From contig NZ_UWOK01000001.1 of assembly GCF_900573985.1 (NCBI RefSeq), positions 1,178,001-1,242,000 of the forward strand: DNA of 64,000 nucleotides, written 5' to 3'. The DNA comes from Campylobacter showae (GTDB lineage Bacteria > Campylobacterota > Campylobacteria > Campylobacterales > Campylobacteraceae). How positions within the stretch are numbered: position 1 is the first letter of the stretch; each line of letters begins with the position of its first letter. The notes under the pieces are model-generated. The model saw nothing but the letters and a program-made list of their open reading frames with translations. It did no database searches and had not been told where the DNA came from. Below are positions 2,888 to 56,826 of the stretch, in pieces. A program made the position numbers and the translations under genes.

Positions 2888-4972
2888 TTACACCGCTTTT
2901 TCGACGAAGCTAGACATTATCTCGCGGCTGATTCCGCCGAAATTTATCGTTAGCTTTAGCTCTTTTTTAATCTTTGTTACCGCCGTCACGCGCCCGATAC
3001 CGAAAATTTTGTGCTTGACGAGGTCACCTTTTTTGTATTCGCCTGCGGTTTGAGTTTGCGTTTGGATGATGAGGCTGCCGCTGCAAACGCCTGCTTCGCT
3101 TAAAAATCTGCTCTTTTCCAGCCTCGTTCGCTGGCCCTTATAAAAGCGCGAATTTACAAAGCTTAGCGTCAGGGTTTTTTTGGCACGGGTGATGGCGACG
3201 TAGGCTAGGCGTCGCTCCTCCTCGATGTCGCTACCCTCTCCTAGAAGCGGGAAAAATCCCTCTTCAAGCCCGATCACGAAAAGATGCTCAAACTCAAGCC
3301 CTTTGCTCGCGTGGATACTCATGATCGAGATCGCCTCGCCGCCGATGTTATCCTGCTCGCTTTGTAGCGCGATCTCGTTTAAAAACTCCTCGATAGAAAA
3401 GCTTGGATTTTGCTTGATTTGATCCTTGATCGTAGCGTAAAACTCGTCAATGTTCGCCACGCGCTCGGAGCCGTCGGGTAGGCTCTCGTAGTATTTTTTG
3501 ATGCCGAATTTCGCTTCTAGTTTATCCACTAGCTCGTACGGCGAGTCGCACTCTTTTAGCTCTCTTAAATTTGCCGCAAATTCGCCCAGGCTTGAGACGA
3601 TCTTTTTGCTTAGATCCTTGTCGTTTTCGTCCAGGCTAGATATCGCTTCAAATAGCGAAAATTTATGCTCGAAGGCAATCTTTTCGATCTTTGCGAGGCT
3701 TACCTTGCCAAGACCGCGCTTTGGACGGTTAATGACGCGCTTTAGCGAGAAGTCGTCGTTCTCGTTTGCGACCAGTCTTAGGTAGCTGATGACGTCTTTG
3801 ACCTCGGCGCGCTCGTAGAATTTAACTCCGCCGACCATTTTATACGGGATTTTTTCTTTGGTTAGGCCTTCTTCGAGCGAGCGGGAGAGGGCGTTTATGC
3901 GGTACAAGATCGCGATATCGCTAGCCTGCGCGCCGCTATCAAGCAGCTTTTTGATGCGTTTGGCTACCTTTAGACTCTCCATCGTTTCGTCGTCTGATTC
4001 CATTAGCGCGACGTCCTCGCCGCCTTCTTTGGTGCTTTTTAGCTCTTTACCTAGGCGGTTTCTGTTATGGTCGATGAGCTCGTTTGCCGCGCGTAAAATT
4101 TGACTCGTCGAGCGGTAGTTTTGCTCTAGCCTTATGACCTTGACGTCTTTAAACTGGTCTTTAAAATTTAATATATTTTCGATTCTTGCGCCGCGCCAGC
4201 CGTAGATACTCTGATCATCATCGCCCACGACAGCGATATTTTCGTGCGTGCAGCAGAGTTTGCGCAGGAGCTTATACTGTAAGTCGTTGGTGTCTTGATA
4301 TTCGTCCACCATAACGTAGGCGTACCTGTGCGAGATCTCGCGCGCTAGAGCTTCATCCTCGTCTAAAATTTTATAGCTAAGGCAAAGCAGGTCGTCAAAA
4401 TCCACGAGGTTATTTGCGGCTAGATACTCTTCGTAGAGTTTGTAGATGTTCGCTAGCTTTGCGTGGTAGCCGTCTTTGAAATTATGCCCGTTTGCAAACA
4501 TACCGCCGTGATTTAGCACCTCTTCTACGCTTAGAAGCGAGTTTTTAAAATTTGAGATCTCGCTAGCTAGCACCGAGGTTGGAATATCGCCCTCAAAGCC
4601 TTTTAAAATCCGCTTTTTATCGTCCGTGTCGATGATAACGAAGTTGTTTTTGCGCTTTAGACGGTCGATGTAAAATTTTAAAAACAAAAGCCCGAATTTG
4701 TGGAAAGTGCAAAGTAGCGGAGTGAAATTTTTACCTGCGTCGCCTAGCATTTTTAGCGCACGGGTTCGCATTTCACTTGCGGCTTTGTTGGTGAAGGTTA
4801 GCGTTAGGGTATTTGAAGGCGGGATACCTAGCTCGCTTATGAGATAGGCTAGGCGAGTGGTGATGGTTTTGGTTTTACCGCTGCCGGCCCCGGCTAAAAT
4901 CAGCATCGCTCCGTCCGTATGCGAGGCGGCCTCGCGCTGGCTTTCGTTTAGTTCGTCTAGTAAATCGGGCAT
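2888..4972 (-). CDS. UvrD/Rep-type superfamily 1 DNA helicase
   Basis: A 694-residue 3'-5' helicase of the UvrD/PcrA/Rep family. Visible motifs are Walker A AGAGSGKT (residues 27-34), motif II DEYQDTN (about 223-229), GDDDQSIYGWRGA (motif III), the LEQNYRS motif IV and a VAITRAKK motif VI region near residue 610. These enzymes unwind DNA in mismatch and excision repair and clear proteins from DNA. The C-terminal segment (KKGDLVKHKIFGIGRV) resembles the small Tudor-like PcrA/UvrD tail that binds RNA polymerase. It is slightly shorter than E. coli UvrD (720). C. jejuni has the homologue in the same place, next to truB. Confidence 0.93.
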   Translation of the reverse strand: MPDLLDELNESQREAASHTDGAMLILAGAGSGKTKTITTRLAYLISELGIPPSNTLTLTFTNKAASEMRTRALKMLGDAGKNFTPLLCTFHKFGLLFLKFYIDRLKRKNNFVIIDTDDKKRILKGFEGDIPTSVLASEISNFKNSLLSVEEVLNHGGMFANGHNFKDGYHAKLANIYKLYEEYLAANNLVDFDDLLCLSYKILDEDEALAREISHRYAYVMVDEYQDTNDLQYKLLRKLCCTHENIAVVGDDDQSIYGWRGARIENILNFKDQFKDVKVIRLEQNYRSTSQILRAANELIDHNRNRLGKELKSTKEGGEDVALMESDDETMESLKVAKRIKKLLDSGAQASDIAILYRINALSRSLEEGLTKEKIPYKMVGGVKFYERAEVKDVISYLRLVANENDDFSLKRVINRPKRGLGKVSLAKIEKIAFEHKFSLFEAISSLDENDKDLSKKIVSSLGEFAANLRELKECDSPYELVDKLEAKFGIKKYYESLPDGSERVANIDEFYATIKDQIKQNPSFSIEEFLNEIALQSEQDNIGGEAISIMSIHASKGLEFEHLFVIGLEEGFFPLLGEGSDIEEERRLAYVAITRAKKTLTLSFVNSRFYKGQRTRLEKSRFLSEAGVCSGSLIIQTQTQTAGEYKKGDLVKHKIFGIGRVTAVTKIKKELKLTINFGGISREIMSSFVEKAV

Positions 4973-5136
4973 TAAAATTCCTGCTTTATTTATTAAAATG
5001 ATTAAATTCTAACAAAATAAGCTTAAAAATCGCCGCTGATTTAAATTTGGGTCTGATTAAGAGCGTTTTTAGATATAAATCAATACAATATTAAAAATAT
5101 GATTTTATAAGCTGATATAATAATAAGGAGCCCGAT

Positions 5137-39745: not shown

Positions 39746-41839
39746 ATGGATGAGACAAAGAGCGTTTTTATCAACCGCGAGCTTAGCTGGTTGCGCTTTA
39801 ACTCGCGCGTTTTAGCTCAATGCGAAAAGGCGTTGCCGCCGCTTGAAAAGCTAAAATTTATCGCGATTTATATGACGAATTTGGATGAATTTTATATGAT
39901 CCGCATCGCGGGACTAAAGCAGCTTTTTGCCGCGGGAGTCGCAGCTAGCGGTAGCGACGGCATGAGTCCGCTCGAGCAGCTAAGAGAGATCAGAAAATAC
40001 ATCAAAGACGAACTCGCGCTCGTGGAAAAACACTATAAAGACGCATTAAAAGAGCTCGCGCAAAACGGGCTTTTTATGAAAAATTACGACGAAATCTCGC
40101 CCGAACTTCGCGCTAAATGCGACGAGTATTTTTTCTCAAATATCCTGCCCGTCATCGTGCCTATCGCGGTTGACGCCACGCACCCGTATCCTCATCTAAA
40201 CAACCTTAGCTTTAGCCTAGCCGTTAAGCTTGCCGACGCGGATAGTCCAGAGATTATAAAATTTGGCATGATACGCATCTCGCGCGTTTTGCCGAGATTT
40301 TATCAAGCGGCCGACAACGTCTACGTGCCGATAGAAACGATCGTACACCGCCACGCAGAAGAGATTTTTCCGGGTTACAAGCTGCTTAGTTCGGCGGCGT
40401 TTAGGGTCACGCGAAACGCCGATATCGTCATCGAGGAAGAAGAGGCCGATGATTTTATGATGATCCTCGAGCAAGGGCTCAAGCTACGCCGCAAGGGCGC
40501 CTTTGTCCGCATGCAGATACAAAAGGACGCCGACGCCGAGATAGTCGAGTTTCTAAACTCGCATATGAAGATTTTTTATAAGGATATCTACGAGTACACC
40601 GTCCCGCTCACGCTAAATTCGCTCTGGCAAATCGTGGGAAATAAAGAATTTTCGTACCTTTGCCTACCGCCGTACGCGCCAAAGACATTGCCGCCTTTTA
40701 GCACTCATCTCTCGATGTTTGACGTCATCGATAAAGAAGACGTGCTAGTCGTGCATCCCTACGAGAGCTTTGATCCCGTCGTGCAGTTTATCAGGGAGGC
40801 GAGCAAGGATCCGCGCGTGATCTCGATCCGCATGACGCTCTACCGCGTCGATAAAAACTCGCCTATCATCCAGGCTCTCATCGACGCCGCAAACGACGGC
40901 AAGCAGGTAACCGTGATGGTCGAGCTAAAGGCGAGGTTTGACGAGGAAAACAACCTACACTGGGCAAAGGCTCTAGAGGACGCCGGCGCACACGTGATAT
41001 ACGGCATCACGGGCTTTAAGGTGCACGCAAAAGTGAGCCAAGTCATCCGCCAGGAGGGCGGCAAGCTCAAATTTTACATGCATCTATCCACGGGCAACTA
41101 CAACGGCGGCTCGGCGAAAATTTACACCGACGTGAGCTATTTTACGAGCAGGGCGGAGTTTGCGAGCGATACGACGACGTTTTTTCACATACTTTCGGGT
41201 TTTTCTAAAAACCGCCGTTTGCAGACGCTTTCCATGTCGCCGATGCAGATAAAAGAGCGCGTGCTAGAGATGATAAAGACCGAGACCGCGCACGGCGAGC
41301 AGGGCAGGATCGTGGCCAAGATGAACGCGCTAGTCGATAGCGACATCGTGGACGCGCTGGTAAAGGCAAGTAGCGCGGGCGTGAAGATCGATCTCATCGT
41401 GCGCGGCATCTGCTGCGTGCGTCCTGGCGTGAAAGGCCTAAGCGAAAATATCCGCGTGAGATCGCTCATCGGCAAATACCTTGAGCACGCGAGGGTATTT
41501 TATTTTAGGCACGCCGACCCTCAAATTTACATCGCATCCGCTGACTGGATGCCGAGAAATCTCGAGCGCCGCCTAGAGCTCATGACGCCGATAATCGATA
41601 AAAATTTGCAAGAGCGTTTGCTGGAGTTTTTGCGCTTGCAGCTTAGCGATAACGAGCTAGCGTTTGAGTTGCAAAACAGCGGCGAATATGCCAAGGTAAG
41701 ACCGAAAGAGGGCGACGCGCGTATAAACTCGCAAGAGGTGCTCGAGGAGTACGTGAGCGGGATATATAAGGCGACGAAAAAGGATACCGATAAGGGGAAG
41801 AGCGAGCAGATGGTGGCGAAACTGCTAAAAGAAAGTTGA
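39746..41839 (+). CDS. ppk: Polyphosphate kinase 1
   Basis: A complete 697-residue Ppk1 that makes polyphosphate from ATP. The N-terminal domain begins [16 protein letters not shown] (8-23). The two phospholipase-D-like halves carry the active-site histidines in [11 protein letters not shown] (about residue 430) and in [14 protein letters not shown], with [17 protein letters not shown] between them. In C. jejuni Ppk1 supports stress survival and virulence (family knowledge). The stop codon is followed after one base by a copy of the dispersed repeat described at 41840. Confidence 0.97.
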
Positions 41840-41963
41840 GCGGCTCGTCTTTTTGCTCTATACTTCGTTACTTGTAAATTCGGCTCGGTCATTACCTATA
41901 TGGCAACTCCCGTCGCCAAATTTAAAAGCGCCTCGTCTAGAACAAAAATATTTCACCTTGTCG
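41840..41963 (+). repeat. Dispersed intergenic repeat, copy A (3' of ppk1)
   Basis: This copy begins one base after the ppk1 stop, with GCGGCTCGTCTTTTTGCTC, then ATACTTCGTTAC, CGGCTCGGTCA, GCGCCTCGTCTAGAAC, AAAAATATTTCACCTTGTCG. The same ordered blocks recur at 47766-47895 (opposite strand), 56236-56355, 56374-56472 and 56540-56655. It holds no ORF of note and no strong hairpin shared by all copies. Confidence 0.75.
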
Positions 41964-42168
41964 TTTTATATTCAAATTTGAAGTCGATTTGTAAATTTTG
42001 ACTTCAAATTTTACCCACCGAGACCTGCACCTTGATGCTGTTAAAATTTAACTCACAAATTTACAGAAATCTCCGCATGTCGCGAATTTTACTTCGCCGA
42101 GCTTTTTGTCGCACGCATTTCGGTCAAAATTTGAAAAACACCAAAATACGCCGAATTTAAGGGATAAA
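41964..42168. other. Spacer between repeat copy A and the LysE-type gene
   Basis: The spacer is AAATTT-rich. An in-frame ATG at 42106 would extend the exporter by 21 polar residues, but the extension has no membrane or signal character. I see no other gene here. Confidence 0.5.
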
Positions 42169-47517: not shown

Positions 47518-47765
47518 TAAGTTTTATAAAATTTTTAAAATTTTACTCACTCAAAGCGGTTGTCGCTCGCGCCCACGATAAATCGCGGCACGAAAATTTG
47601 GCTTCGTTACAAACTCAGCTCAAATTTTCGGGACGAAAGCTTTTCGCTCATAAAATTTAAAAATTCTTTGAAGCCAAATTTAGTATTCTCAAGATGCGGA
47701 TCTCGGTGAGTAAAATTTGAAGCCAAATTTACAAATTTAGCCAAATTGGACCCCAAATTTGAACG
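47518..47765. other. Non-coding DNA between candidate RNA and repeat copy D
   Basis: The region has low coding character and many AAATTT words. A frame of 96 codons on the minus strand (47607-47897) starts inside repeat copy D and reads through this spacer; it has no family resemblance, and I treat it as a by-product of the repeat. Confidence 0.5.
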
Positions 47766-47895
47766 CAAAACGATAAGGCGAAGTGTTTTTTCGTCAGACG
47801 AGGCAGCGGCGAGCGAGGCGAGGGAGCGGACTGGTCGTCCGTGACCGAAGCCGACTGAGCCGGTAACGAAGTATGGCGGAAAAAGACAAGCCGCC
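47766..47895 (-). repeat. Dispersed intergenic repeat, copy D (3' of uvrB)
   Basis: Read on the minus strand it begins about five bases after the uvrB stop: GGCGGCTTGTCTTTTTCCG, then ATACTTCGTTACCGGCTCAG, CGGCTTCGGTCACGG, CGCTCCC, GCTGCCTCGTCTGACG and AAAAAACACTTCGCCTTATCG. These blocks match copies A and B in order and spacing. This copy is richer in G and C than the others, and its GGCGG...CCGCC can form a hairpin around the T tract, which is not conserved in the other copies. Confidence 0.75.
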
Positions 47896-47899
47896 AATT

Positions 47900-49876
47900 T
47901 TAAAGTTTACGGATTTTGGCGATTTCGTCGCGCAACGCCGCCGCCTTCTCAAACTCCAGCTGCTCGGCGGCTTCTAGCATCTGCTTTCTTAGTTCTTTGA
48001 TTATGCTCGCTCGCTCGGCGGCAGGCATTTTTTCTAGATTTTTGCCGCGTTTATATATCTCGCCCTCATCCTCGACGTGCAGGCTCTCTTCGATGTTCCG
48101 GCTAGCAGAGCGCGGGACGATGCCGTGAGCGCGGTTGTATTCGTCCTGCATCTTGCGGCGAGCTAGCGTCGTATCCATCGCTTCTTGCATGGATTTGGTG
48201 ATCTTTTTGGCAAACATCAGCACTCGTCCGTTTACGTTTCTAGCCGCGCGCCCCATCGTTTGTATGAGGCTCGTCGTTGAGCGCAAAAAGCCTTCCTTAT
48301 CGGCGTCCATGATGGCTATGAGGCTAACCTCGGGCAGATCAAGCCCTTCTCTTAGCAAATTTATGCCGATAAGCATATCAAACTCGCCTCCGCGCAGTCC
48401 GCGGATGATCTCGTTTCGCTCGACGGCGTCGATATCGGAGTGCATGTATTTGACCTTGATGCCAAGCTCGGTGTAGTAGCGACTGAGCTCCTCGGCCATC
48501 TTTTTGGTAAGCACGGTGACTAGTACGCGCTCGTTTCTCTCGATGGTTTTTTTTGCCTCGTCAAATAAAATCTCCACCTGATTTTCGCTGTCTTTTATCT
48601 CGATTAAGGGATCTAGCAGTCCCGTCGGGCGTAAAATTTGCTCGTAGACGTGGCCGCGGCTTAAATTTATCTCGTATTCGTTCGGGGTCGCCGAGACGAA
48701 AAGAAATTTGGCGCGTTTGTTTATAAACTCGTCAAATTTAAGCGGACGGTTATCAAGCGCGGACGGGAGACGAAATCCGTACTCCACCAGCACCTCTTTT
48801 CGGCTACGGTCACCCGCGTACATCCCGCGAAACTGCGGCAGGCTCACGTGGCTTTCGTCCACGATGACTAGATAGTCCTTGCCGCCAAGTTCGAAATAAT
48901 CAAACATAGAGTAGGGCGTCTCTCCTGCCTTTTGCCCGGTTAGGTGGCGCGCGTAGTTTTCGATGCCCTTGCACATGCCCGTGCTGCTCATCATTTCTAG
49001 GTCAAACTCCACTCGTTGTTTTAGGCGCTGAGCCTCGACGAGCTTGCCTTGCTCGTTAAATTCTTTTAGCCGCTCTTCTAGCTCCTCTTCTATCTGTTTG
49101 ATGGCGATTTTTAGGCGGTCTGCGCCCACGATAAACTGACTCGTGGCATAAAGCGTAAATTTACCCACGTCTTTTAGTTTTTTGTTTTCCAGCACGTCAA
49201 AGTGATACATAGCGTCTATCTCGTCGCCGAAAAACTCTATACGAAGCGCTTCGTCTCCCCAGTATGCGGGATAGACGTCCACCACGTCGCCGTTTACGCG
49301 AAAGTCGCCTAGGTCGAAGTAGTTATCGTTTCGCTTGTAGCCCATATCGACGAGCTTTTGCAGTAGCGCGCGCTGATTGATATTTTCGCCCACGCCCAGA
49401 TACGCGACCATGCCTTGGTATTCGCTAGGATTACCTAAGCCGTAGTTGGCCGACACCGACGCCACGCACACGACGTCGTCAAAGCTAAGCAAGCTCGCCG
49501 TCGCAGATAGGCGCAGACGCTCGAGCTCTTCGTTTACGGAGCTGTCCTTTTCGATGAAAAGGTCTTGACGCGGGATGTAGGCTTCGGGCTGATAGTAGTC
49601 GTAGTAGCTGATGAAATACTCCACGTGATTTTTAGGGAAAAAGCCCTTAAATTCGCTATAAAGCTGCGCGGCAAGGGACTTGTTGTGCGTCATGATTAGC
49701 GTTGGCATATTTAGCTCGCGTATAACGTTTGCCATCGTAAAGGTCTTGCCTGAGCCCGTGACACCTAAAAGCGTTTGATATTTGTTGCCAGATCTTACGG
49801 AGGCTACTATGTTAGCGACTGCGCGGGCCTGATCCTCGCTCGGGCTAAATTTGGACGAAATTTCAAAATTTTTCAT
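47900..49876 (-). CDS. uvrB: Excinuclease ABC subunit B
   Basis: A complete 658-residue UvrB. Walker A is GVTGSGKTF (38-46), the beta-hairpin that opens DNA is in [12 protein letters not shown] (about 91-102), Walker B is VIVDESHV, and motif VI is QTMGRAARN. The C-terminal UvrC-binding coiled coil is [19 protein letters not shown]. UvrB verifies lesions in nucleotide excision repair. It is divergent from the two small ORFs and is followed at its 3' end by repeat copy D. Confidence 0.98.
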
Positions 49877-55491: not shown

Positions 55492-56235
55492 ATGGCATTT
55501 TTCGATTTTTTCAAAAGAGGCGGCAAAAATAGCGCAAACGCCGCAAAGATCGGCAAGACCGCGCAGGAGCGCAAGGATATAAGCATAGAAATTTTAAAAT
55601 CCCAAGGCGTGCCGTACATTGACCATCTGCCGCTACGATATGAGACGGGTGAGATCACTCCGCGCGAAAAGGACGAGGTTATCGCCCGTGCGATCTGCTC
55701 GTTTGCCGCGATAATGTGTGCTTGCACGATCAGAGATAACGGCGAGCTAACCGACGAAGACAAGCAGGGCACGAAGGACTTTTTGGATAATCGCTTTGGG
55801 TGCATAGACAAGCTAACGCGCATGGAACGCCGCGTCGTGCAGGGCGAGGCGAGCTATAACGAGGCCGTAAATATGGGCTGGAAATACGAGTCGCTGTGGG
55901 CGCTGATGTGGGCCATGGGTCTCGTAGAGGAGCTAAATTTCCCAAACGAGATCTGCGACTGCAAATTTGTGATGGATACCTTTATCGGCGGTGATTTTTC
56001 GGAGCGCGTGAAGCTGCGGGGTACTGATGAAATCCTGCAAGCGCTTGATCTCGTCTATCGTTACCACTGGGCGTGCGTCAATGCCCGCGTGCACGGCTCA
56101 GACTGCGCGGGGCTCGACGAAGAGGTCGTGATGGAGAGGCGCGGCGGGCTAGAGTGGCTGTGCTGCAAGGGGGACGAAAATGATAATCTAACTGACGAAT
56201 ATAATGCGTGGGATTATCCGGACTTAAATACCTAG
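55492..56235 (+). CDS. DUF4272 domain-containing protein
   Basis: A 247-residue soluble protein of the DUF4272 family: PYIDHLPLRYETGEITPREKDEVIARAICSF near the start, WKYESLWALMWAMGLVEEL in the middle and DLVYRYHWACVNARVHG towards the end, then GGLEWLCCKGD and DYNAWDY-like acidic end. The family is common in bacteria but has no known activity. A GGAGAAAAT site precedes the ATG. It stands alone; the stop codon is followed after one base or less by repeat copy B. Confidence 0.85.
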   Translation: MAFFDFFKRGGKNSANAAKIGKTAQERKDISIEILKSQGVPYIDHLPLRYETGEITPREKDEVIARAICSFAAIMCACTIRDNGELTDEDKQGTKDFLDNRFGCIDKLTRMERRVVQGEASYNEAVNMGWKYESLWALMWAMGLVEELNFPNEICDCKFVMDTFIGGDFSERVKLRGTDEILQALDLVYRYHWACVNARVHGSDCAGLDEEVVMERRGGLEWLCCKGDENDNLTDEYNAWDYPDLNT

Positions 56236-56355
56236 CGGCGCGTCTTTTTCCTTTATACGTCGTTGGAAATTTCGCCGAATTTCAGTCACGTATTATAATA
56301 TACGCTCCTTCATTCGGCTCATTTCCGCCTCGTCTAAAGAAAAAATACTGCACCT
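56236..56355 (+). repeat. Dispersed intergenic repeat, copy B (3' of DUF4272 gene)
   Basis: Begins directly after the stop codon: CGGCGCGTCTTTTTCCTTT, ATACGTCGTTGG, TTCAGTCACG, TATACGCTCC, CGGCTCATTT, CCGCCTCGTCTAAAG, AAAAAATACTGCACCTTATTT. It aligns with copies A and D block by block and is the first of three copies in tandem. Confidence 0.75.
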
Positions 56356-56373
56356 TATTTCCGTGTAGCGGTA

Positions 56374-56472
56374 TTTTCTCGCATCGCTATATTCGGTCGC
56401 TACTCATGCACAATAATCACCATCGTAAAATTTTAAGTCGCTTAGTCTAGCTTCGCGATACTGCCGTTCTTG
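56374..56472 (+). repeat. Dispersed intergenic repeat, degenerate copy E
   Basis: Shows TTTTCTCGCATCGCTATATTCGG at its start and CTTAGTCTAGCTTCGCGATACTGCC at its end. The end is nearly identical to that of copy C (CCTAGTCTAACTTCGCGATACCGCC); the middle is poorly conserved. Confidence 0.55.
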
Positions 56473-56539
56473 TATTCTTTAACTCAAATTTAAACTAGCC
56501 TACGCTTAAAAATTAAATTTCGCTTTATCTTTGTGTGTT

Positions 56540-56655
56540 GTTTCTCTTTGCTATACGTCGTTGCGTTTAAAATTTGCTTTATTACATATCAAGCATACGC
56601 TCCGCCCGCAAATTTCATCCGCGCCTAGTCTAACTTCGCGATACCGCCTCTTGCG
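56540..56655 (+). repeat. Dispersed intergenic repeat, copy C
   Basis: Reads TTTCTCTTTGCTATACGTCG, then GCATACGCTCCGC, then GCGCCTAGTCTAACTTCGCG and ATACCGCC. The first block corresponds to GTCTTTTTCCTTTATACGTCG of copy B, the second to TATACGCTCC, the third to CGCCTCGTCTAAAG. It is the third unit in the spacer before the MBOAT gene. Confidence 0.6.
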
Positions 56656-56826
56656 TCATTTCGCTCAAATTTAAGTTGCAACTTTGGCAGACTATTTTTA
56701 CGTCCTTGCTTCAAATTTGGCCGCTTGTGCGTTTAGTTTTTGCTCGGTAGCAATTAATTAATTTTTATTTTGTTTAAATATTAAATAATGTTTATTATAA
56801 TTGCGCTAAAAATCAATGGATGGATA

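Follow-up and report, generated by a model that had tools for sequence, protein, structure and literature searches.

The window, a stretch of 64,000 nt of Campylobacter showae DNA, holds three copies (A, B, and D) of an imperfect palindrome adjoining the genes for polyphosphate kinase (ppk1), a DUF4272 protein, and UvrB. They are members of X, a dispersed family of imperfect palindromes of ~120–126 nt. A sequence-only reading of this DNA had placed the three copies 0–5 bases past the stop codons of these genes, in sense. Coordinates from covariance model R1 confirm the copies and this placement, copy B starting one base earlier than described, and Pfam domains confirm the genes (Table 1). Going beyond that reading, the analysis identified a second subfamily, X2, the exchange of hairpins at orthologous gene ends (slots), and copies in 23S rRNA.

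Table 1. Coordinates of X copies and associated features (window positions unless another sequence is named)
Feature	Position	Strand	Details
ppk1, polyphosphate kinase, adjoined by copy A	39746..41839	+	Pfam PF02503, PF13089, PF13090, PF17941
Copy A, X1 hairpin	41840..41963	+	0 nt past ppk1 stop codon; R1 127.7 bits
Y repeat start (CCGAGACCTGCACC...), 3′ of copy A	41994..42048	+	Inverted-repeat pair with 47676–47730, 78%
Y repeat start, 3′ of copy D	47676..47730	-	Inverted-repeat pair with 41994–42048; by eye
Copy D, X1 hairpin	47771..47894	-	5 nt past uvrB stop codon; R1 116.1 bits
uvrB, adjoined by copy D	47900..49876	-	Pfam PF12344, PF17757
DUF4272 gene, adjoined by copy B	55492..56235	+	Pfam PF14094
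Copy B, X1 hairpin	56235..56360	+	Offset −1 nt, first base is last base of the DUF4272 gene's TAG; R1 112.1 bits
Doubtful remnant between copy B and second copy	56368..56475	+	R1 17.2 bits, E 0.016, weak
Decayed second X1 copy behind copy B	56533..56656	+	R1 44.4 bits, E 1.3e-9
Weaker second copy at the DUF4272 gene end, genome G001	1284849–1284970		Behind the first copy
Facing X pairs, genome G001	128065/128309, 209722/209884, 659219/659363, 1186615/1187224, 1904654/1904918
X2 copy, viral contig L351	6535–6656
X2 copy, viral contig L349	10199–10321
Insertion in helix 45 of 23S rRNA, genome G006 (locus L315)	4968–5100		Ends with reversed X1 5′ end (AAAAAGACAAGCC)

Window copies and the wider family

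The ppk1 gene has its best match among named genomes in Campylobacter showae CC57C (98%). The closest genome compared, G001, shares 27% of sampled 31-letter words with the window. At the same DUF4272 gene end, G001 likewise has a weaker second copy behind the first. A second repeat, Y (~0.3 kb, inverted ends CCGAGACCCGCACC...GGTGCGGGTCTCGG), was seen by eye behind many X copies in the window and at G001 loci L003–L016. The ATACKTCGTT block by itself has no significance within the window. The word AAATTT gives an uncounted impression of being very dense in the window and in related intergenic DNA; it fits the RAATTY methylation motif, which is tied to DNA uptake in C. jejuni.

A two-block pattern allowing up to three mismatches gave 8 + 18 = 26 matches in G001 and 2 + 1 = 3 for the reversed control. 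Model R1, for subfamily X1, was built from alignment A1 of 19 copies, comprising 16 of the 21 G001 copies printed and the three window copies; the scores of A, B, and D are therefore high by construction. Model R2, for X2, was built from alignment A2 of 24 of the 35 copies in the candidate list. X2 has the same ends as X1 (GGCTTGTC...CTTCGCC), about the same length, and a different interior. It was found by these shared ends only, which gave 27 matches in G001, 17 in G023, and 18 in G006, against 1, 1, and 0 for the control; a few of the matches are due to chance.

R1 gave 40 matches in G001 (E ≤ 0.01), 50 in G006, and 38 in G023 (both E ≤ 0.001), X2 cross-matches included. R2 gave at least 49 matches in G001, 57 in G006, 49 in G023, and 51 in G030, X1 cross-matches being possible. 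The two tallies overlap because the models cross-match; G001 has ~32 X1 copies and at least 28 X2 copies. The sequence-only reading had staked its proposal on a profile search returning more than the window copies, and R1 has at least one match at E ≤ 0.001 in 34 of 60 genomes, the independent genome G001 among them. R2 matches occur in 51 of 120 genomes of the bacterial family. Across the order, 31 of 398 genomes match R2 at E ≤ 1e-6, representing 7 of 87 genera, all in two families. Most other species have few copies.

Weaker R1 matches were seen in two further families of the order, one in G043 (2.6e-7) and two in G056 (best 9.0e-11). X2-like hairpins at three loci (L355, L356, L357) in genomes of another family keep inner loop motifs resembling GGAGCTTG...GCGCAACC, with quite different outer ends. 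A short REP-like repeat (CTTTGCTTC...TCGCAACTGCAAGCAGA) is nested in some X copies, at the TTCG internal-loop motif (L014, L018, L216) or in the tip loop (L215).

No Rfam family matched at gathering score in the window, and none matched up to E 1 in 14 loci. The open-access literature searched showed no paper on such a dispersed Campylobacter family, and the sequence-only reading likewise knew of no named Campylobacter family with this pattern. Searches of plasmids with one X1 query and of phages with one X2 query gave no matches. Among viral contigs, the exact X1 pattern was found in no stretch and the X2 pattern in three, of which L349 and L351 were confirmed by R2 and L350 was not. The two confirmed contigs are from IMG/VR. 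In L351, X2 starts 3 nt past the stop codon of an ORF whose translation, as read, resembles a tail-fiber assembly gene.

Placement, folding, and strand asymmetry

Placement was scored for 60 G001 copies, namely 32 X1 (40 R1 matches minus 8 X2 copies) and 28 X2. One X1 copy, split by a different repeat, was lengthened manually. Gene edges were taken from our own ORF and dicodon caller rather than from annotation. In 53 of the 60 copies, no more than 30 nt separate the 5′ end from a gene edge, which disposes of the random placement that the sequence-only reading had named as fatal to its proposal. Forty of these are in sense, −2 to 25 nt past a stop codon; the other 13 are antisense and precede a start codon by 12 to 28 nt. 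Of the remaining seven copies, two follow another X as its second copy. No 3′ end comes within 30 nt of a gene among the 57 copies that have a 3′ gene inside the locus, which three of the 60 lack. Median distances to a gene are 8 nt for the 5′ end and 280 nt for the 3′ end. Chance placement was ruled out by a control in which each G001 element was slid within its own gap; 5000 trials gave a mean of 7.1 of 57 and a maximum of 17, and 50 were observed.

The same polarity was found in G006 (5′ end at a gene edge in 24 of 27, 3′ end near a gene in 0 of 24) and G023 (28 of 30 and 0 of 30). The G006 values are for 27 of 30 loci, leaving out three rRNA-operon loci (L182, L183, and, by equal score, L184). 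Of three loci in other genera, two obey the rule, 6 nt past a stop codon in L325 and 13 nt before a start codon in L327, and L328 is unclear. Gene-edge placement was not established for ten single or rare copies in other genomes. Placement directly after stop codons, as originally described, applies to the 40 sense copies of G001; 13 of 60 copies in G001, 9 of 27 in G006, and 9 of 30 in G023 are antisense and upstream of start codons. The rule thus concerns gene edges of both kinds, with the 5′ end turned toward them. In G001, facing X pairs bracket whole intergenic spaces, each copy adjoining the gene on its own side.

The flank profile has a sharp left border. On the right, conservation extends ~30 nt and includes a T-rich stretch 3′ of the hairpin, where 107 filtered copies average 6.93 T per 11 nt, the opposite strand giving 3.01. 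This stretch starts 7 nt past the stem and has four successive positions with 79–86% T.

Each copy forms a single long hairpin whose internal loops recur at the same positions. In the 24-copy X2 alignment, 97.1% of 883 cells are paired, and 22 of 37 pairs are altered on both sides (shuffles 17.6; 1 of 500 reaches 22). X2 covariation is 0.490, compared with 0.160 in shuffled and at most 0.146 in slid alignments. In the 19-copy X1 alignment, whose middle is poorly aligned, pairing is 81.2% and covariation is 0.271 against 0.125 shuffled; double changes affect 20 of 43 pairs, weakly above shuffles (16.6; 33 of 500 reach 20). Neither alignment exceeds its shuffles in how many further pair types occur (424 and 467 of 500).

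G-T pairs are fewer than A-C pairs in X2 (5 vs 10 of 883) and in X1 (37 vs 51 of 815). The rarity of G-T pairs in X2 means that there is no RNA wobble signature on the sense strand. Copy A folds at −21.6 kcal/mol in sense and −47.7 in antisense as RNA. Sense folds of two of the three window copies, A and D, are no better than shuffles (z −1.26 and −0.39); those of copy B (z −5.89), one X2 copy, and one rRNA copy are better. All 43 aligned copies fold more stably in antisense, whether RNA or DNA parameters are used. Unpaired letters in sense are 69% (X2) to 82% (X1) pyrimidine, and those on the opposite strand are therefore purines. Together, the stability difference and the bias of the unpaired letters suggest that selection acts on folding of the antisense strand.

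Slots in related genomes and copies in 23S rRNA

The ppk1 slot holds X1 in the window, G001, G031, and G006 and X2 in G030 and G023. The uvrB slot holds X1 in the window and G001 and X2 in G030, G006, and G023. Hairpins at the DUF4272 slot differ between genomes too. In a 20-kb stretch compared across four genomes, the orthologous gene end is present in two or more genomes for eight slots. Six of the eight are filled wherever that gene end was found, mostly by different hairpins, one occupant being read by eye only. The other two have X in two of the four genomes; at their empty orthologues the surrounding DNA differs too, and neither a clean-ended insertion nor a target duplication was recognized.

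Slot classes were compared for 33 occupants of nine slots, leaving out slot B, tandem copies, and copies unplaced by the models. The subfamily switches between species in eight of the nine. Flanking DNA 26–85 nt to the right of the element keeps to the slot (2 of 2000 permutations), and the nearest 25 nt do not clearly do so (199 of 2000). The element ends (left 11 and right 13 nt) do not follow the slot (445 and 481 of 2000). Whole or nearly whole elements are therefore replaced within a retained setting, which fits the spread by recombination that the sequence-only reading had listed among its options. Those same end permutations leave unsupported the idea that the terminal letters stay while the interior alone moves. 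In-place compensatory evolution of single slots was set aside, two-sequence folds favoring intact pairs.

The uvrB-slot copies of the window and G001 are 93–97% identical to those of the more distant same-genus genomes G016 and G037, and uvrB itself is 80–83% identical. Between the close pair G016 and G037, the slot copy (93.4%) is less conserved than uvrB (95.2%). These identities fit either circulation of hairpins or constraint.

Some X2 matches occur in threes with equal scores per genome in G004, G006, and G024. Their 23S genes, with one operon checked per genome, contain X2 at 102–112 bits. In G006, X2 lies in the loops of helix 25 (Rfam position 583) and helix 45 (1218/1219), and in G004 and G024 it lies in helix 45 as judged by matching 23S flanks; the helices are named as in published work on these sites. 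In one genome from another family, a complete X2 sits at position 587 of 23S, counted as for helix 25 of G006. Other copies occupy the 16S-23S spacer or the stretch between the 23S and 5S genes. Among ten single or rare copies in other genomes, one falls in rRNA and nine do not.

According to PMC2801512, Campylobacter can carry intervening sequences (IVSs) in helices 25 and 45; these fold into stem-loops, and IVS-bearing strains have fragmented 23S rRNA. PMC4990558 describes IVSs of other bacteria that replace the tip loop and are excised by RNase III. Some X2 copies resemble IVSs in filling the helix 25 and helix 45 loops. IVSs are described as rRNA insertions, whereas the X family also has dozens of copies at protein-gene edges. 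The match between X and published IVSs is one of site and description. The helix 45 insertion in G004, G006, and G024 is longer than one X. In G006, its last part is in addition an X1 5′ end in reverse, so the insert resembles an X joined to a fragment of an inverted partner. In the open-access literature searched, nothing was found on IVS copies elsewhere in Campylobacter genomes.

Known elements and interpretation

The attC site of integrons is a variable imperfect palindrome just past a stop codon, with a folded bottom strand and conserved ends; its core boxes are RYYYAAC...GTTRRRY. X is not an attC site: the core boxes are absent, the X ends having the consensus GCGGCTTGTCT and ATACTTCGCCTTA, and no cassette array was seen. 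REP/RAYT and IS200/IS605 hairpins are conserved and acted on as single strands. X is several times longer than REP, given as 20–40 bp in the available text of PMC3733652. Membership in REP/RAYT and movement by a Y1/HUH (RAYT) transposase were rejected, as no such gene was found in 25 of 25 same-genus genomes. For a MITE, whose ends would match those of an autonomous host transposon, the transposase class covered was likewise Y1.

ERIC is a long imperfect palindrome. X, at ~120–126 nt, agrees with the ERIC description as an imperfect intergenic palindrome of ~127 bp. It is like ERIC/IRU of enterobacteria (127 bp) in length, intergenic position, transcription with neighboring genes, and the importance of orientation, as PMC2229807 describes them. 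By description, the letters being uncompared, X is unlike ERIC in that its stems vary by paired changes, one end sits at a gene edge, its slots differ in hairpin between species, and copies occur in rRNA. Correia/NEMIS of Neisseria are likewise small non-autonomous palindromes near genes, with a role of RNase III on the RNA stem-loop proposed in the same paper (PMC2229807). That paper gives NEMIS 24-bp inverted ends and a target duplication; neither was recognized in X, which pairs over its whole length. BOX elements of pneumococcus are also modular folding repeats, some at gene 3′ ends where they supply the stop codon, and vary in boxB number according to PMC3049150, whereas X varies by whole hairpins of constant length. 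Apparently new in X are the one-ended gene-edge placement, slot exchange, paired stem drift favoring the antisense strand, and copies at IVS sites. We know of no description of one-ended placement, or of different whole hairpins at fixed slots, for ERIC-like repeats.

The sequence-only reading had offered a 3′-UTR element, a mobile non-autonomous element with target preference, or terminator or processing DNA spread by recombination. Of this, a dispersed structured element with fixed polarity to gene edges stands, and a terminator role is neither shown nor excluded. X could be an RNA device that acts locally, in the main as an intrinsic terminator or as a hairpin for 3′-end processing or stability, each copy being kept because it works. 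Its 40 sense copies right past stop codons, the T-rich stretch 3′ of the hairpin, and the six of eight slots filled wherever the orthologous gene was found are all as such a device would have them, as is a uvrB-slot copy more conserved than uvrB between the window and G001 on one side and G016 and G037 on the other. However, 13 of 60 G001 copies are antisense before start codons, the sense strand has the less stable fold in every aligned copy, the T run starts 7 nt past the stem, a terminator scan passed over the element at site A, and a slot can have its hairpin exchanged for an unrelated one. We consider a local device rather unlikely. Copies that are inert relics of old ordinary recombination, placed as they are only through loss of spare DNA between gene and element, would account for decayed copies such as the one behind copy B and for the low copy numbers in most other species. 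Such relics would not be expected to show X2 paired changes far above shuffled and slid controls, a one-ended placement with no 3′ end near a gene in G001, or slots holding full-length hairpins of uniform length in several species, and this origin appears very improbable.

Two further proposals give the folded strand an enzyme. X may be a single-strand recombination site, similar to attC or REP, at which a putative enzyme would read the bottom strand in its folded form and insert hairpins at gene edges or swap them there. Structure more conserved than sequence, unpaired positions at fixed places, a bottom strand that folds better with both parameter sets, the scarcity of G-T relative to A-C pairs in X2, conserved ends, and whole hairpins differing at one slot would all agree with this. 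It is opposed by the lack of a Y1 transposase in the 25 same-genus genomes, by an end profile without the attC core motif, and by X ends that do not follow the slot, and we hold it to be improbable. A hairpin-exchange system is a tentative and still unlikely variant: a putative activity would read the folded bottom strand of a ~120-nt hairpin, set the hairpin with fixed polarity right beside a translated region or into an rRNA loop, and keep replacing the hairpins of slots, 23S IVSs being rRNA-borne slots.

On balance, we lean toward X being a non-autonomous mobile palindromic family of Campylobacter and relatives, similar to ERIC and to Correia/NEMIS and including rRNA IVSs. Weighing against this are the absence of a Y1/HUH transposase from the 25 same-genus genomes, the failure to recognize a clean-ended insertion or a target duplication, element ends that do not clearly follow the slot, sense folds of copies A and D no better than shuffles, X1 double changes that exceed shuffles weakly, a uvrB-slot copy less alike than uvrB between G016 and G037, and the location in rRNA of one alone among the ten single or rare copies. 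For such a mobile family, selection would act on a folded single strand, probably the one antisense to the orientation of X, whose internal loops keep their positions, and stems would drift mostly in pairs. The GCGGC end would face the gene, either right past the stop codon or just upstream of the ribosome-binding region of the start codon, and tolerance of insertions at transcript edges may underlie this placement. A slot, once formed, would mostly be kept across related species while its hairpin is swapped for another family member. The swap would most simply occur by ectopic recombination, the bacteria presumably being transformable. Copies in the loops of 23S helices 25 and 45 would be the rRNA IVSs. 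By analogy, transcribed X copies may be cut by RNase III.

X at gene edges offers a source for the IVS insertions of rRNA and makes the question of their origin testable. If RNase III cuts transcribed copies, many mRNAs of this group would have hairpin-defined ends.
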